Of a stretch of 29,474 bases of DNA, positions 5,078 through 23,792 are shown piece after piece; within the stretch, counting starts at the first letter, position 1; the number at the start of each line of letters is the position of its first letter. A program made the translations under genes and the position numbers. Origin of the DNA: a virus. The notes under the pieces are model-generated. The model saw only the letters and a list, made by a program, of their open reading frames with translations, searched no databases and had not been told where the DNA came from. The stretch is taken from positions 1 to 29,474 of IMG/VR virus record IMGVR_UViG_3300035071_000003; one strand, 5' to 3'.

Positions 5078-7543
5078 ATGGCCAATACGCTTCGCGGGCT
5101 CGCGCTCGCGCTGATTTTGCTCGTGCTATCCCCTGCTATGGCGATGGCCGATAATGTGCACTATCAGATTTGGACCGTCCGCTTTAACGGAAACTATTCG
5201 ACGGGAATTCCGATCCCTGGCGCGTCCACGACCGTTTATCAGCGCGGGACGACGACAAAAGCATCGCTATACGACGCGAGCGGCAAGGCCATATCGAATC
5301 CGTTCATATCGGACGCGAACGCGATTGCCGGCTTCTGGGCTGCGGGCGGGGCGAGCTACGACGTCGTTTGGAGCTCAGGAGCCTACATTTCTCCGACGAT
5401 CCAGCCATCGCCGATTATCTCAGCACGAAGCAACACATACAGCGTCCTCGATTTCGGCGCGTCATGCTCGTCTTCGTCCTTAGATGATGGCGTTGGACTT
5501 GCGAACGCGGCTGCGGCTAATGCCTTGCGCATCCCTGATGGCGCGAGCTGCTACATCAATGCCAACACGGCGCTGACGGCGCCTGCGTTGCGCGTTGGAC
5601 TCGGCTCAAAAATTTATGTCGGCAGCGGCGTCACATTGACCATCAATGCGATGGTCGACGCTAAGATGGCGTCTCAGATTTTCTACGCGACTGGAGCCAA
5701 CAATGGGACGATGGGCTCCGGGAAGATTGTTCTTGGCGTCTCGCAAGACGTGCTGCCAGAATGGTGGGGCGCGAAAGGAGACAGCACCACAATCAACAAT
5801 GTGCCGTGGCAGCAGGCGGCCAACGCCATCAGCGGCTCGATCGGCGGCACGCTGCGCGTGCTGCGCGGCCAGTATAAATTCGATTGTTCGTCTGGCGACG
5901 CTGTGACGGTCACGGGGGCTTACCCGATCAACATCATCGGCCTGAGCCAGGACAATTCGATCTTGCGGCCGACGACGAACTGCGCCGGGAACGCCATCCT
6001 GTCGATCAATCCGTCAGGCAACAACGGCGAGATCGCCAATCTGCAGTTCAACGGCGCCGCGCTCGGGATCGGCGACAAGACGCACACATGGACCGGGCTC
6101 AAATGCCTGCGCTGCGGCGTCGATGCGATCCACGATATCTACGCCTTCAAAGTCGGGACCGGCATCGACCTTCAGTTTTACAAATCTGGAAACGTCTACA
6201 ACACAAACATCCAATACGCCGCGAAATACTGCTACAATCTCGGAGGCAGTTCGTTGGCGAATGGCGGCGCCATCGTCGTCAGTTCTCTGAACATGGAGAA
6301 CTCGCAGTGCGCCACGATCGGCAGTCAGGCGACGAGCTTTCACATCGGCTCCGGCACATCGGAAGTGCAGTTCCGGAGAACGTATGTCGCGGGGTCTGGC
6401 GATAACACGGATTGGGCCAGCGTCGGCATCCTGATCGATAATCTGGCGACCAGCGGGTATGTCCCCGGGGGGCTGCGGTTCTTTGCGCCAAACATCGATC
6501 GGCATGCTCGCAACGTCTATATCACGGCCGGATGGAACGTCGAACTTCATGGCGGCGAGTTCGGCCAGAACTCCATCGGGAATATTGTTGCGGACGCGGG
6601 CGCCAATGGCGTTGCTACTGTTCGAAACCTCCGCGTCTACGATTCTCAGGTGAGGCCCGGCGGGCAGCACGTTATTGACTTTATCAAGGCCGCGGACCTC
6701 CTCGTCCAAGGCTCTGTGATCTTCGACGCAGGCGGCGGCGGCACTGGTGCTCTAACGCCCAACACTTATTCCAGCATCCACGTCGGTTCTGCCGCGATCG
6801 GAACGGTTGACATTGAAGATAACGAAATGTGCGCGCCCTTCGGCGAGTCTGTCTCGAACCGCTCGAAATACGCGCTCCAACTCGACGCAGGGGCGCTTAC
6901 GCCAACAACGGACGGATACAGCATCCTTCGCCCGGGCGCCCTGACGGTCAAGGGCAACCACTGGTGCGGGATGACGGAGGAGCTGAATGACGGCTCCACG
7001 CCGACGACCAAGAACATCCAGGAGTGGTTTAAGTCGCAGACGGTCTCGGCCGTTAATGAGATCGACTTCACGGCGCTGCCGACCGCCTATCGGGATTTCC
7101 GGCTGGAATGCTCCGGGCTGACGTTCTCGGCCGCCAACAAGCCGTCGATCCAGACAGGCCAGGGCGCGACGCCGACGTGGAACACGACCGGCTACACGAC
7201 GCAGCTAACCGGCTACTCGTCGACAGGGACCGGAGCGCAGATCGCTTTTTCCAACACATCGACGACGGGGCTTTGGTTGGGGGTCAACCAGCTACCGGCG
7301 AATTCCACCTTCCCGCTGTCGTTCACGATGTGGCTTCGCAACCACAACTCGACGTCGCAATACAAAACCTTGGAGCTGGTAAGCTCGAGCATGGAGTCGA
7401 GCGCCAATAATTATGAAACTGTGCGCGGCCATGGCGCCTATCTGACCGACACAAACGCCATCACGGCGCTGCGGATCATTCCGCAATCCGGAACCGAGTC
7501 CGGATCGTGCTCGCTCACCGGCTACGCGATGCAAGGCGGCTAG
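5078..7543 (+). CDS. Beta-helix tail fibre/spike with N-terminal signal peptide
   Basis: ATG 5078 is preceded by GAGG seven bases upstream and gives 821 residues; the frame is open further upstream but there it lies inside the previous gene. Residues 1-24 (MANTLRGLALALILLVLSPA then MAMA) form a clear Sec-type signal peptide, which is unusual for a virion tail protein. After an N-terminal domain comes VLDFGA near 125 and EWWGAKGD near 228. These are entry motifs of the right-handed beta-helix (pectate-lyase-like) fold found in tail spikes that bind or cut surface glycans. The rest is repetitive beta sequence, ending in a Ser/Thr-rich jelly-roll-like domain. It follows the tail-tip gene after 13 bases, the usual place for receptor-binding proteins. 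The substrate cannot be told, and catalysis is not proven. Confidence 0.7.
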   Translation: MANTLRGLALALILLVLSPAMAMADNVHYQIWTVRFNGNYSTGIPIPGASTTVYQRGTTTKASLYDASGKAISNPFISDANAIAGFWAAGGASYDVVWSSGAYISPTIQPSPIISARSNTYSVLDFGASCSSSSLDDGVGLANAAAANALRIPDGASCYINANTALTAPALRVGLGSKIYVGSGVTLTINAMVDAKMASQIFYATGANNGTMGSGKIVLGVSQDVLPEWWGAKGDSTTINNVPWQQAANAISGSIGGTLRVLRGQYKFDCSSGDAVTVTGAYPINIIGLSQDNSILRPTTNCAGNAILSINPSGNNGEIANLQFNGAALGIGDKTHTWTGLKCLRCGVDAIHDIYAFKVGTGIDLQFYKSGNVYNTNIQYAAKYCYNLGGSSLANGGAIVVSSLNMENSQCATIGSQATSFHIGSGTSEVQFRRTYVAGSGDNTDWASVGILIDNLATSGYVPGGLRFFAPNIDRHARNVYITAGWNVELHGGEFGQNSIGNIVADAGANGVATVRNLRVYDSQVRPGGQHVIDFIKAADLLVQGSVIFDAGGGGTGALTPNTYSSIHVGSAAIGTVDIEDNEMCAPFGESVSNRSKYALQLDAGALTPTTDGYSILRPGALTVKGNHWCGMTEELNDGSTPTTKNIQEWFKSQTVSAVNEIDFTALPTAYRDFRLECSGLTFSAANKPSIQTGQGATPTWNTTGYTTQLTGYSSTGTGAQIAFSNTSTTGLWLGVNQLPANSTFPLSFTMWLRNHNSTSQYKTLELVSSSMESSANNYETVRGHGAYLTDTNAITALRIIPQSGTESGSCSLTGYAMQGG

Positions 7544-11354: not shown

Positions 11355-11606
11355 TTATGTCCCTAAAACACGGCTGCGCATCGCTGCCGCGAATGTCGAG
11401 GGCTTAGCCCCGGTCGCCAGCATCAATTCGACGGCGACGGCCGCCGGACCGCTCGGGCCGCGCTCCTCCCAATCCAGTATGCTTTGGCCTGGATCGCGGC
11501 CGCGCAGGCCAAGCAATCGCCCGAGCTCGGCGGCGTGCAATGGGCGCCCCAGGCCCCATATCTCGCCGAGCGTGCGGCGTGCGGCGCGAAGCTCTTCGCC
11601 GGTCAT
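11355..11606 (-). CDS. Small HTH (XRE-like) regulator
   Basis: A protein of 83 residues with GGAG about ten bases upstream of the ATG. TGEELRAARRTLGEIWG, HAAELGRLLGLRGRDPGQSI and WEERGPSGPAAVAVELML read as a divergent Cro/C1-type helix-turn-helix with the usual W-E-x-G-x-x-x-P segment after the recognition helix. It probably binds DNA near its own promoter or the accessory genes to the right. Two 22-bp near-identical repeats upstream of it (11676-11697 and 11741-11762) could be its operators, an alternative to the CRISPR-like reading given separately. The function as a regulator is a family inference. Confidence 0.6.
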   Translation of the reverse strand: MTGEELRAARRTLGEIWGLGRPLHAAELGRLLGLRGRDPGQSILDWEERGPSGPAAVAVELMLATGAKPSTFAAAMRSRVLGT

Positions 11607-11661
11607 TGACTCTCCTGCTCCTTTGTCGCATCGTGGCCATGTCGGCGCATGGGGCCGGCAT

Positions 11662-11760
11662 GTCGCGTCGCCCAGCCGGCGCGCTGGGTTGAAACAAGCC
11701 TTAGTTTAGACGTTAGTCTTGCAGCAGATGTCGCGCCGTTCCGGCGTGCTGGGTTGAAAC
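11662..11760 (+). CRISPR. CRISPR-like mini-array: two degenerate type I-C-like repeats, one 34-nt spacer
   Basis: Copy 1 (11662-11695, 34 nt) and copy 2 (11730-11760, 31 nt) both begin GTCGCG and both end GCTGGGTTGAAAC. They share a 22-nt 3' block that continues into AA and differs at one base. The gap between them is 34 nt, the usual type I-C spacer length. Type I-C repeats typically start GTCGC, end in TTGAAAC and are 31-33 nt, and both copies keep identical last 11 bases, the size of the I-C crRNA 5' handle. Copy 2 can form a CGCGCCG/CGGCGTG stem. A + strand terminator follows at 11800. No cas gene is near and no clear promoter is visible. Alternative: a pair of operators for the adjacent HTH gene. 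Confidence 0.4.
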
Positions 11761-11799
11761 AACAGTCATAACCCGTCTTGTGCGGTTGGATTTTGAGCG

Positions 11800-11835
11800 A
11801 GAGCCCGGCTTGACCGCCGGGCTCTTTGCACTTTA
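11800..11835 (+). terminator. Rightward intrinsic terminator after the CRISPR-like repeats
   Basis: AGAGCCCGGC and GCCGGGCTCT pair over 10 bp around a TTGACC loop, then TTGCACTTT. The T-rich side is only on the + strand, so it would end a rightward RNA carrying the two repeats, or protect the leftward genes from rightward reading. Confidence 0.7.
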
Positions 11836-12087
11836 GGCCGTCGGCGCGATCTCTCTCGCATGACCGCGCCGATAGTCCCACACAACCCCATTAGCGACCG
11901 CCTCCTCCTCAGCCAGACGCTTGCTGGCTCCTGCCAATCGCCAGTTGGCGTCAATCAACTCCGCGAGCTGGCGCGCCGTGAGCTTCTCGATGACGGATGC
12001 GGGGATGCTGTCGAGCATCCTCGCGAAGGCTTGCGGATGGGAGCCAATAGCGGCGATCTTGCGGGCGCGCTCAATCTTGATGGACAT
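11833..12087 (-). CDS. Small helical accessory protein, unknown
   Basis: The start chosen is ATG 12087 because GGAGG lies seven bases upstream; this gives 84 residues, and the longer open frame has no good site. The protein is predicted all-helical: MSIKIERARKIAAIGSHPQA, VIEKLTARQLAELIDANWRL, then a charged stretch and VVWDYRRGHAREIA. I know similar small proteins only as unannotated genes of rhizobial mobile elements. It is the second gene of a two-gene unit behind a regulated promoter at 12461-12488. Its size and its place next to HTH genes would fit an anti-defence or regulatory protein, but no function can be claimed. Confidence 0.55.
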   Translation of the reverse strand: MSIKIERARKIAAIGSHPQAFARMLDSIPASVIEKLTARQLAELIDANWRLAGASKRLAEEEAVANGVVWDYRRGHAREIAPTA

Positions 12088-13260: not shown

Positions 13261-14349
13261 CTAACTCCCGCACTTTTTTGGAGGTGCGGGAATAGATGTT
13301 CTCGTTTCGAGCTTCTCCATCGCCTGCCTCGCCAGCCGGATGCGGTCCGCCTCTTTCGTATAGACCTCCGCCATACGGCCGCTCTCCCATCCGAAGACGG
13401 CTTGCAGTTCGTGGACGCTGGCGCCGGCGTTGGCCAGTCGCGTCGCGCCGAGCTTGCGGAGACCATGCGCCGAGCCCGGAACCTTCGCGGCTTTGCAGGC
13501 GTCCTTAAACCAGTTGCCGAATGACTCTTTGGTCATCCCCTTCCCGGAAGGCGTCGAGACGAACGCCAAGCCTTTCGAGGGGGTCGCGGCGATGATCTCG
13601 GCGAGTTCCGTTCTAACAGGAATATGAACGACCGCGCCCGTCTTCTCGGTCCGCATGGTTATAACGTTTGATCGGACATGCTGGCGCCCAAGCTGCGAGG
13701 CGTCGCCGCGACGGAGGCCGGAATAGAGCAAGATCGCCAAGGCGAGGCGCTCGCGCGTTCCAATCGGCCACCGCGCTTCGAACTGTGCGACCTCCTCCTC
13801 TGTCCAGGCGTGAAAACCGGTCGTCTCTTGCGACAAGCTCCTAACGCCATCGCACGGGTTGGCGTCGACATGCTGCGCCTCGACGGCCCATTTGAAGAGG
13901 GCGCGCAGCGTCTTCAGATAGTCGTTGGCCGCGAAGGGCGTCTCCCTGCGACGGTCGCGGCCGTCGACGATATCGGCGCGCGTAATGGCCGCGAATGGCT
14001 CATCGCCCGCGCTTTCCAGAATCCGCTTGAAGATGTTCTCGCGGGCGCGGCGCGTCGCCATGGAAAGCTCTGTCCACGCCCCGCTATCCCGGTAGCGGTC
14101 GACCAACCAGCGCAGCGAGCCCGTCTTGACGCTTTGGCGCCTTGGCTTGGCGACCTCGCCGGCAAGCGCCGCGGCGTAGGCGTCCGCGAAGTCGGGCGCG
14201 CCGTAGTCAGGAAGCCGGATGCGCGGCCCCTGCCCTCGCCTAAAATACCAAACGCGGCGGCCGTGGCGCGTGATCTCGGAATGAACGAATGGCGGGCGCG
14301 GTCGCGGCATATCAGCCCCAGCGATCGGGTTGACGTTGCCGCGAATCAT
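13261..14349 (-). CDS. int: Tyrosine-type integrase
   Basis: A protein of 362 residues. The N-terminal part is an Arg-rich arm-type region (RPRPPFVHSEITRHGRRVWY). A SAM-like core-binding domain follows at about 75-175, and the catalytic domain from about 180. Catalytic residues visible are Arg in SGLRRGDA, Lys in TEKTGAVV, the HxxR box in AHGLRKLGATR, Trp in FGWESGRMAE and the tyrosine nucleophile in EVYTKEADRI. It catalyses site-specific strand exchange for integration and excision. ATG 14349 overlaps the stop of the upstream 65-residue gene (ATGA); an internal ATG at residue 14 is a possible alternative start. The gene runs toward the left att-like copy, the usual geometry of integrase next to its attachment site. 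Confidence 0.93.
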   Translation of the reverse strand: MIRGNVNPIAGADMPRPRPPFVHSEITRHGRRVWYFRRGQGPRIRLPDYGAPDFADAYAAALAGEVAKPRRQSVKTGSLRWLVDRYRDSGAWTELSMATRRARENIFKRILESAGDEPFAAITRADIVDGRDRRRETPFAANDYLKTLRALFKWAVEAQHVDANPCDGVRSLSQETTGFHAWTEEEVAQFEARWPIGTRERLALAILLYSGLRRGDASQLGRQHVRSNVITMRTEKTGAVVHIPVRTELAEIIAATPSKGLAFVSTPSGKGMTKESFGNWFKDACKAAKVPGSAHGLRKLGATRLANAGASVHELQAVFGWESGRMAEVYTKEADRIRLARQAMEKLETRTSIPAPPKKCGS

Positions 14350-18995: not shown

Positions 18996-20609
18996 TCACC
19001 AAACCAAAAATCCGTCGGGGCGTTCGTTTATGTCGGCATAGATGCAACGCTGATCTTCGCCAGTTGCCGCACGCGCAACCGCCATCGCGCAAGCTACGGC
19101 GCCGTCTATGCGGTCGCGACTCTTGCCCTTGTGAAACGATCGATTCAGCGCCTTGTCAGTCTCAACGGCGACGTTATCGAAGTTCCATCTAAGAACCGGG
19201 TGGCCGCCGTGTCGGAACTTGCCGGCGATGATCGCGCGCTCGAGCTCGGCGATCGCCGGCGCCATCGTGACCCAGCCTTGCCTCATCTCGACGGCCGGGT
19301 ATCCATCGTCCAAGAGATTGTTGAGCGTGTTGCGGGCTAGGTGTGGATCGAAGGCGATCTCCCGCACGTCGAAGCGCTTGCACAGGTCACGGATGCGATC
19401 TTCAACAAGCCGGAAGTCGACCACGTTGCCCGGTGTCGGCTCGATGAATCCCTTCTCCGCCCAACGTGGATACGGAACGCCGTCATTGTCGGAGCGGCGT
19501 TGCAGATTGTCCTTCGGACAGAAGAACCATGGATGGACGATGTAGCCGCCCTCGCCGTCGCGCCACGCGGCGACAATGACGGTAAGGTCGCTGTTACTCG
19601 ATAGGTCGACGCCAAGCCAACAAGGCTCACCTTCGAGGGCCTTCAGGTCGATCGGCGCGGCGCCCTGGTCGTAAATCGACATATCCACGAACGGGTCGGC
19701 GGAATGATCCAGCCACATATTAAGGTGGAGCTGCTTGAACGCCTCGCGGTCCGCTGGCCGCGCTTCGGCCTCACGCGCGAGCTGACGCAAGCCCTCGATA
19801 TCCGGGAATCCATCAGCTAGGCCAGGATTGACGCGCCGCCAAACCTCTTCGTCCTTCCAATCGGCGTCGCGCGCCGTTTCGAGTAAGACAGGCAATGTCG
19901 CCGGATCGTTTATATCGCCGCGCGCCAGGCGCCGGGCATGATCGATGACGCTCCAGGCGACGTTCTCTTGTCCGCGCCCGGCGGTCGTTATGATGATCGA
20001 AAGCGTTCCGGGCGTCTTCACAAGGCCGGTTTTCAGGACGTCCCATAGCTCTTGGCCGCGAAGGCCCCAGGCGTGCAATTCGTCGGCGATGACGACTGAG
20101 GGCGTCGAACCATGTTTCGTTCCGGCGTCGGAACTAATCGCCTCGATTTGCGAGCCGGATTTGGGATGCAAAAGGCGGTTCTGGTAGTCGCGGAAAATCA
20201 GGGCGTCGGCGAAGCGCTTATCCGCGCGCGAAATGCCTGTCGCTTCCTCGAAACAGATTTTCGCCTGCTTTTGATCCGCCGCCGCCATGAGGATTTGGCC
20301 GCCGTTGACGCGCTCGGGCCCGAATAGGTGCAAGAGCGAGATTGCAGCCGCGAGCGACGTCTTACGGTTGCCTCGGGGAAGCAAGATGACGACGTTGCGG
20401 GTGATGCGGCGCCCGTCTGCATGGCAAGGGCCGTAAATCCGGCGAATGATCCGCTCTTGGAACCGGGGAAGCTCGAAAGCCTTGCCGCGCGAGCGGCTTT
20501 TGGGGTGGCGAAGTATCTTCAGGAACCTAATCGCGCGCTCGCCATAGCCAAATGGATCATCAATCGGCGAGTCGTCGAAAAGCCATGTAGGAAAGCCCTT
20601 GTCGGTCAA
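18996..20609 (-). CDS. terL: Terminase large subunit (HK97/Terminase_1 type)
   Basis: A protein of 537 residues. The ATPase domain shows a Walker A-like LLPRGNRKTSLAAAISLL, Walker B VVIADELHAW and a coupling motif TTAGRG. The C-terminal RNase H-like nuclease domain has WLGVDLSSNSDLT, AFDPHLARN and DRIDGAVACAMA with its acidic residues in place. It pumps DNA through the portal and cuts concatemers, acting with the small subunit whose stop overlaps its start (ATGA). Full family length. It is near the 3' end of the operon here, whereas in most HK97-like phages it opens the head operon. Confidence 0.95.
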   Translation of the reverse strand: MTDKGFPTWLFDDSPIDDPFGYGERAIRFLKILRHPKSRSRGKAFELPRFQERIIRRIYGPCHADGRRITRNVVILLPRGNRKTSLAAAISLLHLFGPERVNGGQILMAAADQKQAKICFEEATGISRADKRFADALIFRDYQNRLLHPKSGSQIEAISSDAGTKHGSTPSVVIADELHAWGLRGQELWDVLKTGLVKTPGTLSIIITTAGRGQENVAWSVIDHARRLARGDINDPATLPVLLETARDADWKDEEVWRRVNPGLADGFPDIEGLRQLAREAEARPADREAFKQLHLNMWLDHSADPFVDMSIYDQGAAPIDLKALEGEPCWLGVDLSSNSDLTVIVAAWRDGEGGYIVHPWFFCPKDNLQRRSDNDGVPYPRWAEKGFIEPTPGNVVDFRLVEDRIRDLCKRFDVREIAFDPHLARNTLNNLLDDGYPAVEMRQGWVTMAPAIAELERAIIAGKFRHGGHPVLRWNFDNVAVETDKALNRSFHKGKSRDRIDGAVACAMAVARAATGEDQRCIYADINERPDGFLVW

Positions 20610-22629: not shown

Positions 22630-23424
22630 TCACGCCATCTCTTCCTCTAGCGCGAGGGCTCCGGCGCCCATCTGCTTTGGCGCTTCCTCTCTCTCGCGGT
22701 TTCTGCCCGATGGTCGCATGTGGTTATCGATGGTGGGCATTAGGATATGCTCGATAGACCAGCCACGGCTGACGCGATTTCGCATCGTGCTGTAGTTAAC
22801 GCCTGTCTCTTCGGCCCACTGACGAAGCGTTTGGCTTCTTCCGTTGTGTTCGTATCGACGTGCTGAACGTTCCTTCCGCTGTCGAGGTTCTTTCTCGACC
22901 TTCTCGACCTTGACGCGAGGCTCTTTTCTGGTGCGAACAACTTGGCCGCGAATAGCTTCGTTCGAAAACGCTTGCTCGACGGTCCAACCTCTCATTAAGC
23001 GGTTTTGAAGCGTTCTCCGCTTAGTTCCGAGACGCAGCGACCATTCCGTCAATGAAAGGTTTTCGCCATTGAACATATAGAGCTTGCAACTTGGTGTGCT
23101 TACTTGGCGTTGTCGCGGTTCACGACACACTCGTGGTTTTCTGGGAACCGGTTTAAACTCAAAGGCTGTAATTTCGAGCAATTGTTTTTGACAAACTGGT
23201 TTCGTTTTAGTTCGCGTGACAGCCTTGGATATAGAGCGATGACTACCGGCGATGTTCGATATCGGATGGTGGTGCGTGCAATACGACGAACCTTCGGCGC
23301 GCTTATCAGAACAGAAGGCGAAGCTGTCTTCGTCGCCGATCGGATATTTGCATTGATCTCGACGAAGAGACCAGACAGCTTCAGCTATCGGATTATGATC
23401 GAAGAGGCGTTCAATTGGCGTCAT
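22630..23424 (-). CDS. GcrA-like Cys/His domain fused to two HTH-type repeats
   Basis: ATG 23424 overlaps the preceding stop (ATGA); 264 residues. Residues 25-53 (CKYPIGDEDSFAFC, then YCTHHH) copy the conserved C-terminal motif of GcrA, CRWPIGDP...FxFC...YCxxH, which lies in the sigma70-binding part of that alphaproteobacterial regulator. Residues ~116-153 and ~191-228 are two similar units, each N-G-x(4)-L-x2-W-x5-G followed by R-x3-R-GW-x-[VI]-E. These are the DNA-binding repeats seen in phage HNH/AP2-type proteins; a basic linker separates them. No HNH motif is present. It could be a DNA-binding regulator that contacts host RNA polymerase, or a derelict homing protein. Its place between tail and head genes is that of an inserted gene. 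Confidence 0.6.
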   Translation of the reverse strand: MTPIERLFDHNPIAEAVWSLRRDQCKYPIGDEDSFAFCSDKRAEGSSYCTHHHPISNIAGSHRSISKAVTRTKTKPVCQKQLLEITAFEFKPVPRKPRVCREPRQRQVSTPSCKLYMFNGENLSLTEWSLRLGTKRRTLQNRLMRGWTVEQAFSNEAIRGQVVRTRKEPRVKVEKVEKEPRQRKERSARRYEHNGRSQTLRQWAEETGVNYSTMRNRVSRGWSIEHILMPTIDNHMRPSGRNREREEAPKQMGAGALALEEEMA

Positions 23425-23792
23425 GTTAGGAGATTGAAAGATTGAGTGAAGGTCGCTTTGATCGAACGGTAATTCTGGCCCTGGTAGGTCGCGGCAAGGA
23501 ACGAAACCTCCCATTGCTCGCAAGTCCATTTATCGGGCGTGCTTTTGCCGGGCGCGGTCCAATAGAATGGCGTTATGCCGCCTTGCTGTTGGAGGAAGGC
23601 CTCGATTGAATTAGCTTGAGCCGGCGTCAGGACTTCCCACGTGAGCGAGAATTCGTTCCGGATATGGTTCACGCCCGCCGCTGTGCTTTGGGAATACCCG
23701 TCTCCGAATTCCGCCTTTAGGATAGAGACCTTGGGCTTGTTGGTTGCGCCGACGCTGGGTTGCATGGGCGGCGTGAAGGTCGCGAGCGTCAT
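23421..23792 (-). CDS. Minor tail protein (lambda gpM-like, Phage_min_tail)
   Basis: A protein of 123 residues: VGATNKPKVSILKAEFGDGY, SQSTAAGVNHIRNEFSLTWE, FLQQQGGITPFYWTAPG, then WTCEQWEVSF and SIKATFTQSF. This fits the lambda M family (PF05939), a distal tail component connecting tube and tip. It overlaps the HNH gene upstream and the GcrA-like gene downstream by four bases each. No L-, K-, I- or J-type partner is encoded on this strand. Confidence 0.85.
   Translation of the reverse strand: MTLATFTPPMQPSVGATNKPKVSILKAEFGDGYSQSTAAGVNHIRNEFSLTWEVLTPAQANSIEAFLQQQGGITPFYWTAPGKSTPDKWTCEQWEVSFLAATYQGQNYRSIKATFTQSFNLLT

Follow-up and report, generated by a model that had tools for sequence, protein, structure and literature searches.

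A diverged pair of type I-C CRISPR repeat-like units in a temperate phage, a candidate tandem RNA anti-CRISPR

A virus record of 29,474 bases (the window, that is, the whole stretch of DNA analysed) carries on its + strand, at 11662-11760, two diverged units that resemble type I-C CRISPR repeats. This resemblance is real, because the position of the stem, both ends, and the spacer length all fit. Diverged two-unit I-C pairs also recur in unrelated phage contigs. On the basis of the sequence, we lean towards reading the pair as a tandem RNA anti-CRISPR (Racr) directed against type I-C CRISPR-Cas, and below we weigh this decoy reading against five other explanations.

Table 1. Positions of the repeat-like units and of selected neighbouring features in the window
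Feature	Position	Strand	Details
Small ORF	11355-11606	-	83 aa; start 55 nt from unit 1, opposite strand
Unit 1	11662-11695	+	34 nt, GTCGCGTCGCCCAGCCGGCGCGCTGGGTTGAAAC; I-C covariance model 22.4 bits, E 1.6e-4; GT; possible 7-bp stem CGCGTCG/CGGCGCG; loop CCCAGC; extra C; 11-nt tail TGGGTTGAAAC
Spacer-like stretch between units	11696-11729	+	34 nt, equal to I-C spacer length
Unit 2	11730-11760	+	31 nt, GTCGCGCCGTTCCGGCGTGCTGGGTTGAAAC; I-C covariance model 21.2 bits, E 3.6e-4; GT; stem CGCGCCG/CGGCGTG; loop TTC; extra C; tail TGGGTTGAAAC
Hairpin 3' of unit 2	11800-11825	+	AGAGCCCGGC-TTGACC-GCCGGGCTCT; fold -25.5 kcal/mol for 11796-11840
Small ORF	11833-12087	-	84 aa from ATG; far side of unit pair
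Tyrosine integrase	13261-14349	-	PHROG 1 E 5.7e-44; Pfam PF00589 E 2.1e-17
Terminase large subunit	18996-20609	-	PHROG 9 E 3.7e-134
HNH endonuclease-like protein	22630-23529	-	PHROG 3377; in head-to-neck region

Anatomy of the two units and their match to type I-C repeats

An earlier note on this DNA had placed two I-C-like units around a 34-nt unique stretch, and a covariance model matched exactly there. The model was built from 49 distinct 32-nt bacterial I-C repeats, each with 7/7 stem pairs, and the window was scanned without filters. Units 1 and 2 were the only two places found, with the next-best match at 9.8 bits, and the same model gave nothing comparable on 898 kb of related phage and prophage DNA (best, 13.2 bits). 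True I-C repeats in viral mini-arrays scored about 50 bits, far above the 21-22 bits of the window units.

The E-values of about 1e-4 for single units hold per window, and the window was possibly selected from among many that were read, so that such values can arise by selection; we discount them for this reason. As they are not overwhelming alone, much of the weight is carried by the pairing of the units at I-C spacer distance. When a loose regular expression was run on 3000 order-3 Markov copies of the window, at least one unit was found in 9 copies and two units in 0. A chance match or an unrelated repeated element would have to account for two units in the same direction at that distance, and we regard it as highly improbable.

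The shared layout of the units is GT, CGCGYCG, loop, CGGCGYG, C, TGGGTTGAAAC, so that the GT end, the GGGTTGAAAC tail, and a possible 7-bp stem at the repeat position are kept in both. The two are 79% identical, and the identity extends 2 nt (AA) beyond the repeat end. The GT and the tail are the same in both units. In the stem there are two differences, one per arm, each changing G-C to G-U and keeping the pairing, and the loop differs both in length (6 nt in unit 1 vs 3 nt in unit 2) and in sequence. Conserved I-C ends with a diverged middle, as the earlier note had described them, were thus borne out, although it is mainly the loop that differs. This pattern of conservation, with invariant GT and tail, stem changes that keep pairing, and a free loop, supports the decoy reading, as does the distance between the units.

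Structure prediction treated the two units differently. For unit 2, the I-C hairpin lay at most 0.3 kcal/mol from the best predicted fold, which includes the same stem. For unit 1, the I-C-like hairpin (-10.4 kcal/mol) competed with a CCCAGC/GCTGGG hairpin that was favoured (-12.7) and that, in the predicted fold, masks the beginning of the tail; for this unit the I-C-like fold is therefore possible but is not the predicted optimum. This rival fold and the scores below those of true repeats count against the decoy reading.

Both units have an extra C between the stem and the tail. It was absent from all 149 distinct bacterial repeats, in which, unlike in the window units, the stem joins the 11-nt tail directly. 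Among viral repeats, an insert at this junction was found, besides the window, only in L293 (T) and L286 (TG). In L286 (6844-7055), the TG belongs to a viral I-C pair and adds a third case of an insert where Cas5c presumably cuts.

These features bear on whether the pair is the decayed remnant of an I-C array that the phage captured from a bacterium and that is now without function. Phages also carry intact pairs of identical repeats, which means that capture happens, and decay would agree with unit scores below those of real arrays and with the failure of the promoter scan to recognise a promoter. However, random decay should strike the tail and stem too, whereas here the differences lie mainly in the loop; both units share the extra C, which bacterial repeats lack; and diverged pairs recur in other phages. 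We consider this explanation unlikely.

A terminator in the same direction had also been proposed downstream of unit 2. A strong hairpin is indeed present there on the + strand, but its T-run is poor (TTTGCACTTT) and for this reason it was not called by the terminator scan; it is possibly a weak terminator at best, perhaps serving both strands. The promoter scan recognised no sigma-70-like promoter for the unit pair, which counts against the decoy reading. A search of Rfam gave only two matches, both sub-threshold. A 92-aa ORF across the unit pair (11603-11881, - strand) overlaps the next start, but it was rejected: it had no PADLOC match, did not look protein-like by eye, and the offset of the units is not a multiple of three.

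For the 34-nt spacer, the longest seed within the window was 9 nt, a length that shuffled spacers also reach, in line with the earlier remark that no spacer match in the window exceeds about 10 nt. Regulatory crRNA-like RNAs with partial matches exist in other systems, and by analogy a crRNA-like RNA from the pair could repress a phage or host promoter through Cascade. Cas-dependent repression by repeat-like sequences is also noted in the Racr paper (PMC10651486). As no target in the window combined a TTC PAM with a seed longer than in shuffled spacers, a result that concerns the phage side only, such regulation seems very improbable.

The spacer was further searched, as had been suggested, against 50,697 phage records and 72,556 plasmid records, with no match beyond chance, and no exact 20-mer of it was present in IMG/VR (2.9 million viral contigs). 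This argues against a phage mini-CRISPR array whose 34-nt spacer the host I-C system would use against a rival phage or plasmid, but only weakly, because few public viruses of this host group exist. A mini-array would explain the repeat-spacer-repeat architecture and the I-C spacer length, and mini-arrays directed against related viruses are an established phenomenon (PMC6858448, PMC11656645). Yet the units are identical neither to each other nor to any bacterial repeat collected, whereas the repeats of known mini-arrays are described as identical to the host's, and we judge this role quite unlikely.

The phage, its neighbouring genes and possible hosts

The window encodes portal, major head, terminase, tape-measure, and tail proteins, an endolysin, and a tyrosine integrase, and was therefore taken as a temperate tailed phage; the position of the integrase places the unit pair in its integration/regulatory region. 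The order of the modules is unusual, with head, terminase, and tape-measure genes on the - strand and tail-assembly and lysis genes on the + strand at the other end. The terminase gene adjoins the tape-measure gene, and the order terminase-tape measure-integrase is shared with the nearest phage, L002 (85% terminase), which ends beside its integrase, before the unit-pair region. Models of Cas5c and Cas8c had no match in the record, in line with the earlier remark that no cas genes are nearby.

The protein of the ORF before unit 1 had been labelled a helix-turn-helix protein. This label was not upheld: no match was found in Pfam, NCBIfam, PHROGs, or PADLOC and no significant one in PDB, and no search assigned a DNA-binding family. 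For want of a family match and a significant PDB match, a reading of this protein as an Aca-like regulator was dropped as well. It has three viral relatives (L180-L182) at 47% identity. The 84-aa protein on the far side of the pair had no family match and no viral relative.

The blocks could instead be DNA operators that bind the 83-aa protein and control its own - strand promoter in the AT-richer 34 nt. The pair lies 55 nt upstream of the start of this gene, GC drops to 52% at 11700-11799, and the AA shared after the repeats completes a TTGAAACAA palindrome. However, the gap between the inverted half-sites is 6 nt in unit 1 vs 3 nt in unit 2, a variation that a single dimer would not easily accommodate, and the C/T differences preserve pairing in RNA at the expense of symmetry in DNA. 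The window has no further copy of GGGTTGAAACAA, and no such blocks were found upstream of the genes in L180-L182, a weak point as these are three distant relatives with identical upstream sequence. Operators would also leave the I-C match as a coincidence, and the protein has no assigned DNA-binding family. The earlier note had named proof of operators as a refutation; they are not proven and are disfavoured by the half-site spacing and by the relatives, and we consider them very unlikely.

Relatives of the terminase were found in 52 of the 397 genomes of the order of Chelatococcus caeni (at most 72% identity) and in 16/119 of its family. Cas8c was present in 35/397 genomes of the order and, above its cut-off, in 24/298 of the family. 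Four family genomes (G408, G435, G445, and G459) had Cas8c and a terminase relative together, so phages of this kind do encounter I-C systems. Paired GGGTTGAAAC tails were found among the 298 family genomes in C. caeni only. Related I-C repeats in plausible hosts, another point on which the earlier note had made its proposal depend, thus exist: I-C systems occur in the order, and C. caeni has GGGTTGAAAC arrays. In the prophage regions around the best terminase matches, no I-C-like units were found.

A search of 84,980 species genomes for a tandem pair of TGGGTTGAAAC tails enclosing GTCGC returned 110 stretches, most of which show the match many times over, as arrays of several repeats of 31-40 nt. 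In addition, 55 regions that surround Cas8c were taken from genomes belonging to the order and the family of C. caeni, and repeats were read in 42 of them. The tails in these 42 arrays were TGGATCGAAAC in 24, CGGATCGAAAC in 9, TGGATAGAAAC in 4, and TGGGTAGAAAC in 2, with TGGATTGAAAC, CGGATTGAAAC, and CGGGTTGAAAC (Chelatococcus) in one array each. The tail of the window units, TGGGTTGAAAC, is thus rare in this order, in which TGGATCGAAAC is dominant, and this counts against the decoy reading. Most I-C repeats of the order in L229-L262 and L320-L339 end in GATCGAAAC, not in the usual GATTGAAAC, and for that reason searches with the common tail miss them.

Diverged two-unit pairs in other viral contigs

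Paired I-C units were sought in viral contigs by two scans, which returned 45 stretches; 20 clusters consisted of exactly two units. Units less than 90% identical were found in 7 of these 20 viral clusters, compared with 16 of 2402 neighbouring repeats in bacterial arrays with the same tail types. The two-unit array of the window itself was in no other viral contig by the unit-pattern scans, so that conservation within a lineage is without support.

Six other pairs were aligned. L162 was 91% identical, and the other five (L274, L284, L293, L298, and L303) were 77-87% identical; each of the five has two units, with kept stems and invariant ends, and with changed stem and loop sequences. Two further diverged two-unit I-C clusters, L280 (84%) and L300 (78%), were included in the counts only. 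The neighbours of the viral pairs were portal and terminase genes in L162, a terminase gene in L293, head and tail genes in L298, a tape-measure gene in L303, and a DNA ligase gene in L274; two ORFs near the L284 pair had no family match.

In a pooled alignment of 12 rows, including the window units, all 72 of 72 stem cells were standard pairs. Two-sided stem changes numbered 14 vs 4.3 in shuffles, an excess that was lost when the partners were slid; these figures lean towards structure, because the set was picked by eye from I-C-looking pairs and the alignment was cut to the outer six pairs. The window contributed one-sided G-U changes only.

Some of these contigs showed further features. In L303 (567-660), on the strand opposite the pair, a ribosome-binding-like GGAGG and an ATG precede a short frame that spans the two units and lies immediately upstream of structural genes; a very small translated ORF belonging to the structural operon may contain this pair. 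L298 has a third, solitary I-C unit (6177-6208) about 1 kb downstream of its pair, immediately followed by a hairpin with a long T-run, which is the layout expected of an ordinary Racr. In L293 (9075-9190), AT-rich 11-bp stems stand in tandem with a third partial unit after them, and the sequences after the units are also alike, as if unit and spacer had been duplicated together.

A possible decoy role and comparison with known systems

The earlier note had offered an RNA anti-CRISPR or a superinfection spacer. The second half gained no support, as no spacer match exceeded chance, and the first is the best explanation. In the mechanism that we infer, the + strand would be transcribed through both repeat mimics and the 34 nt between them, and each mimic would present the stem and tail recognised by Cas5c, which in type I-C both processes crRNA and forms part of Cascade. 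Cas5c would bind the mimics and, if it cuts despite the extra C, would release a full-length crRNA-like RNA with a spacer that has no target. Alternatively, the extra C may slow the cut and hold Cas5c. Either way, Cas5c, Cas7, and Cas8c would be diverted into non-targeting or misassembled complexes, and fewer would remain to load anti-phage spacers. The units may have drifted in sequence with their pairing kept, which would preserve the mimicry and reduce loss of a copy by direct-repeat recombination.

Published work offers parallels for these steps. Racrs mimic CRISPR repeats, and RacrIC1 inhibits a I-C system, in which the crRNA nuclease is Cas5; RacrIF1 binds the crRNA nuclease and gives an aberrant subcomplex, and a plain non-targeting crRNA alone lowers interference (PMC10651486). 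The hosts of Racrs had the matching CRISPR subtype for about 83% of prophage SRUs (PMC10651486).

Among known systems, virus-borne mini-CRISPR arrays (PMC6858448; PMC11656645) are similar to the pair in having two repeats and a spacer-length insert in a viral genome without cas genes. Such arrays have one or two spacers, and their repeats are the same as the host's (PMC11656645), whereas the window repeats are neither mutually identical nor equal to any host repeat found, and no target was found for the window spacer. A leader precedes the first repeat in the archaeal cases, and phage mini-arrays may lack it.

The I-C arrays of C. caeni (L074, L146, L231), which belongs to the same bacterial order as the genomes with relatives of the phage's terminase, share with the pair the GTCGC start, the stem, the GGGTTGAAAC tail, and a similar spacer length. 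They differ in having many near-identical repeats and I-C cas genes in the genome, and in repeats whose stem, of another sequence, is joined straight to the tail. The five diverged viral pairs are closer in their two units, kept stems, and invariant ends, and L293 also has an insert before the tail, as the window units do; these pairs belong to other phages, have the tail TGGATTGAAAC, and in some cases lie among structural genes.

The closest likeness is to Racrs, especially RacrIC1 (PMC10651486): like the pair, these are phage-borne, intergenic, and without cas genes, and RacrIC1 is likewise an I-C repeat mimic with a retained stem and a diverged sequence. However, Racrs are described as solitary, whereas the window units form a diverged pair separated by one spacer length and carry an additional base where the stem meets the tail. 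Under the rules of SRUFinder, a candidate is dropped when its 100-bp flank matches it at more than 70%, and a partner at 90% or above is called a mini-array (PMC10651486). By these flank and partner rules alone, the 79% pair would fall between the categories and be rejected, as would five of the six other aligned viral pairs (77-87%). By analogy, then, the pair probably works like a Racr, but it is not solitary, a defining feature of Racrs, and we do not file it as one.

A literature search on degenerate phage mini-arrays returned only the Racr paper (PMC10651486) and reviews. We tentatively raise the possibility that 'twin Racrs' form a separate recurring class in phages, in which structure is kept and sequence differs to avoid recombinational loss, some members have been converted from Cas5c substrates into traps by inserts at the cut site, and the members have gone uncounted because the published search excludes them. 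If so, the Racr catalogue would miss a whole layout, as its search rejects units with a similar neighbour. A decoy crRNA of full length, and not just a single repeat, would then be available from twin units, which makes it testable whether the complete non-targeting crRNA or the repeat by itself inhibits more strongly. Binding and cutting might also be told apart by means of the insert at the presumed cut site of Cas5c, and the contrast in divergence between viral pairs and bacterial arrays gives a cheap criterion for finding further diverged pairs.
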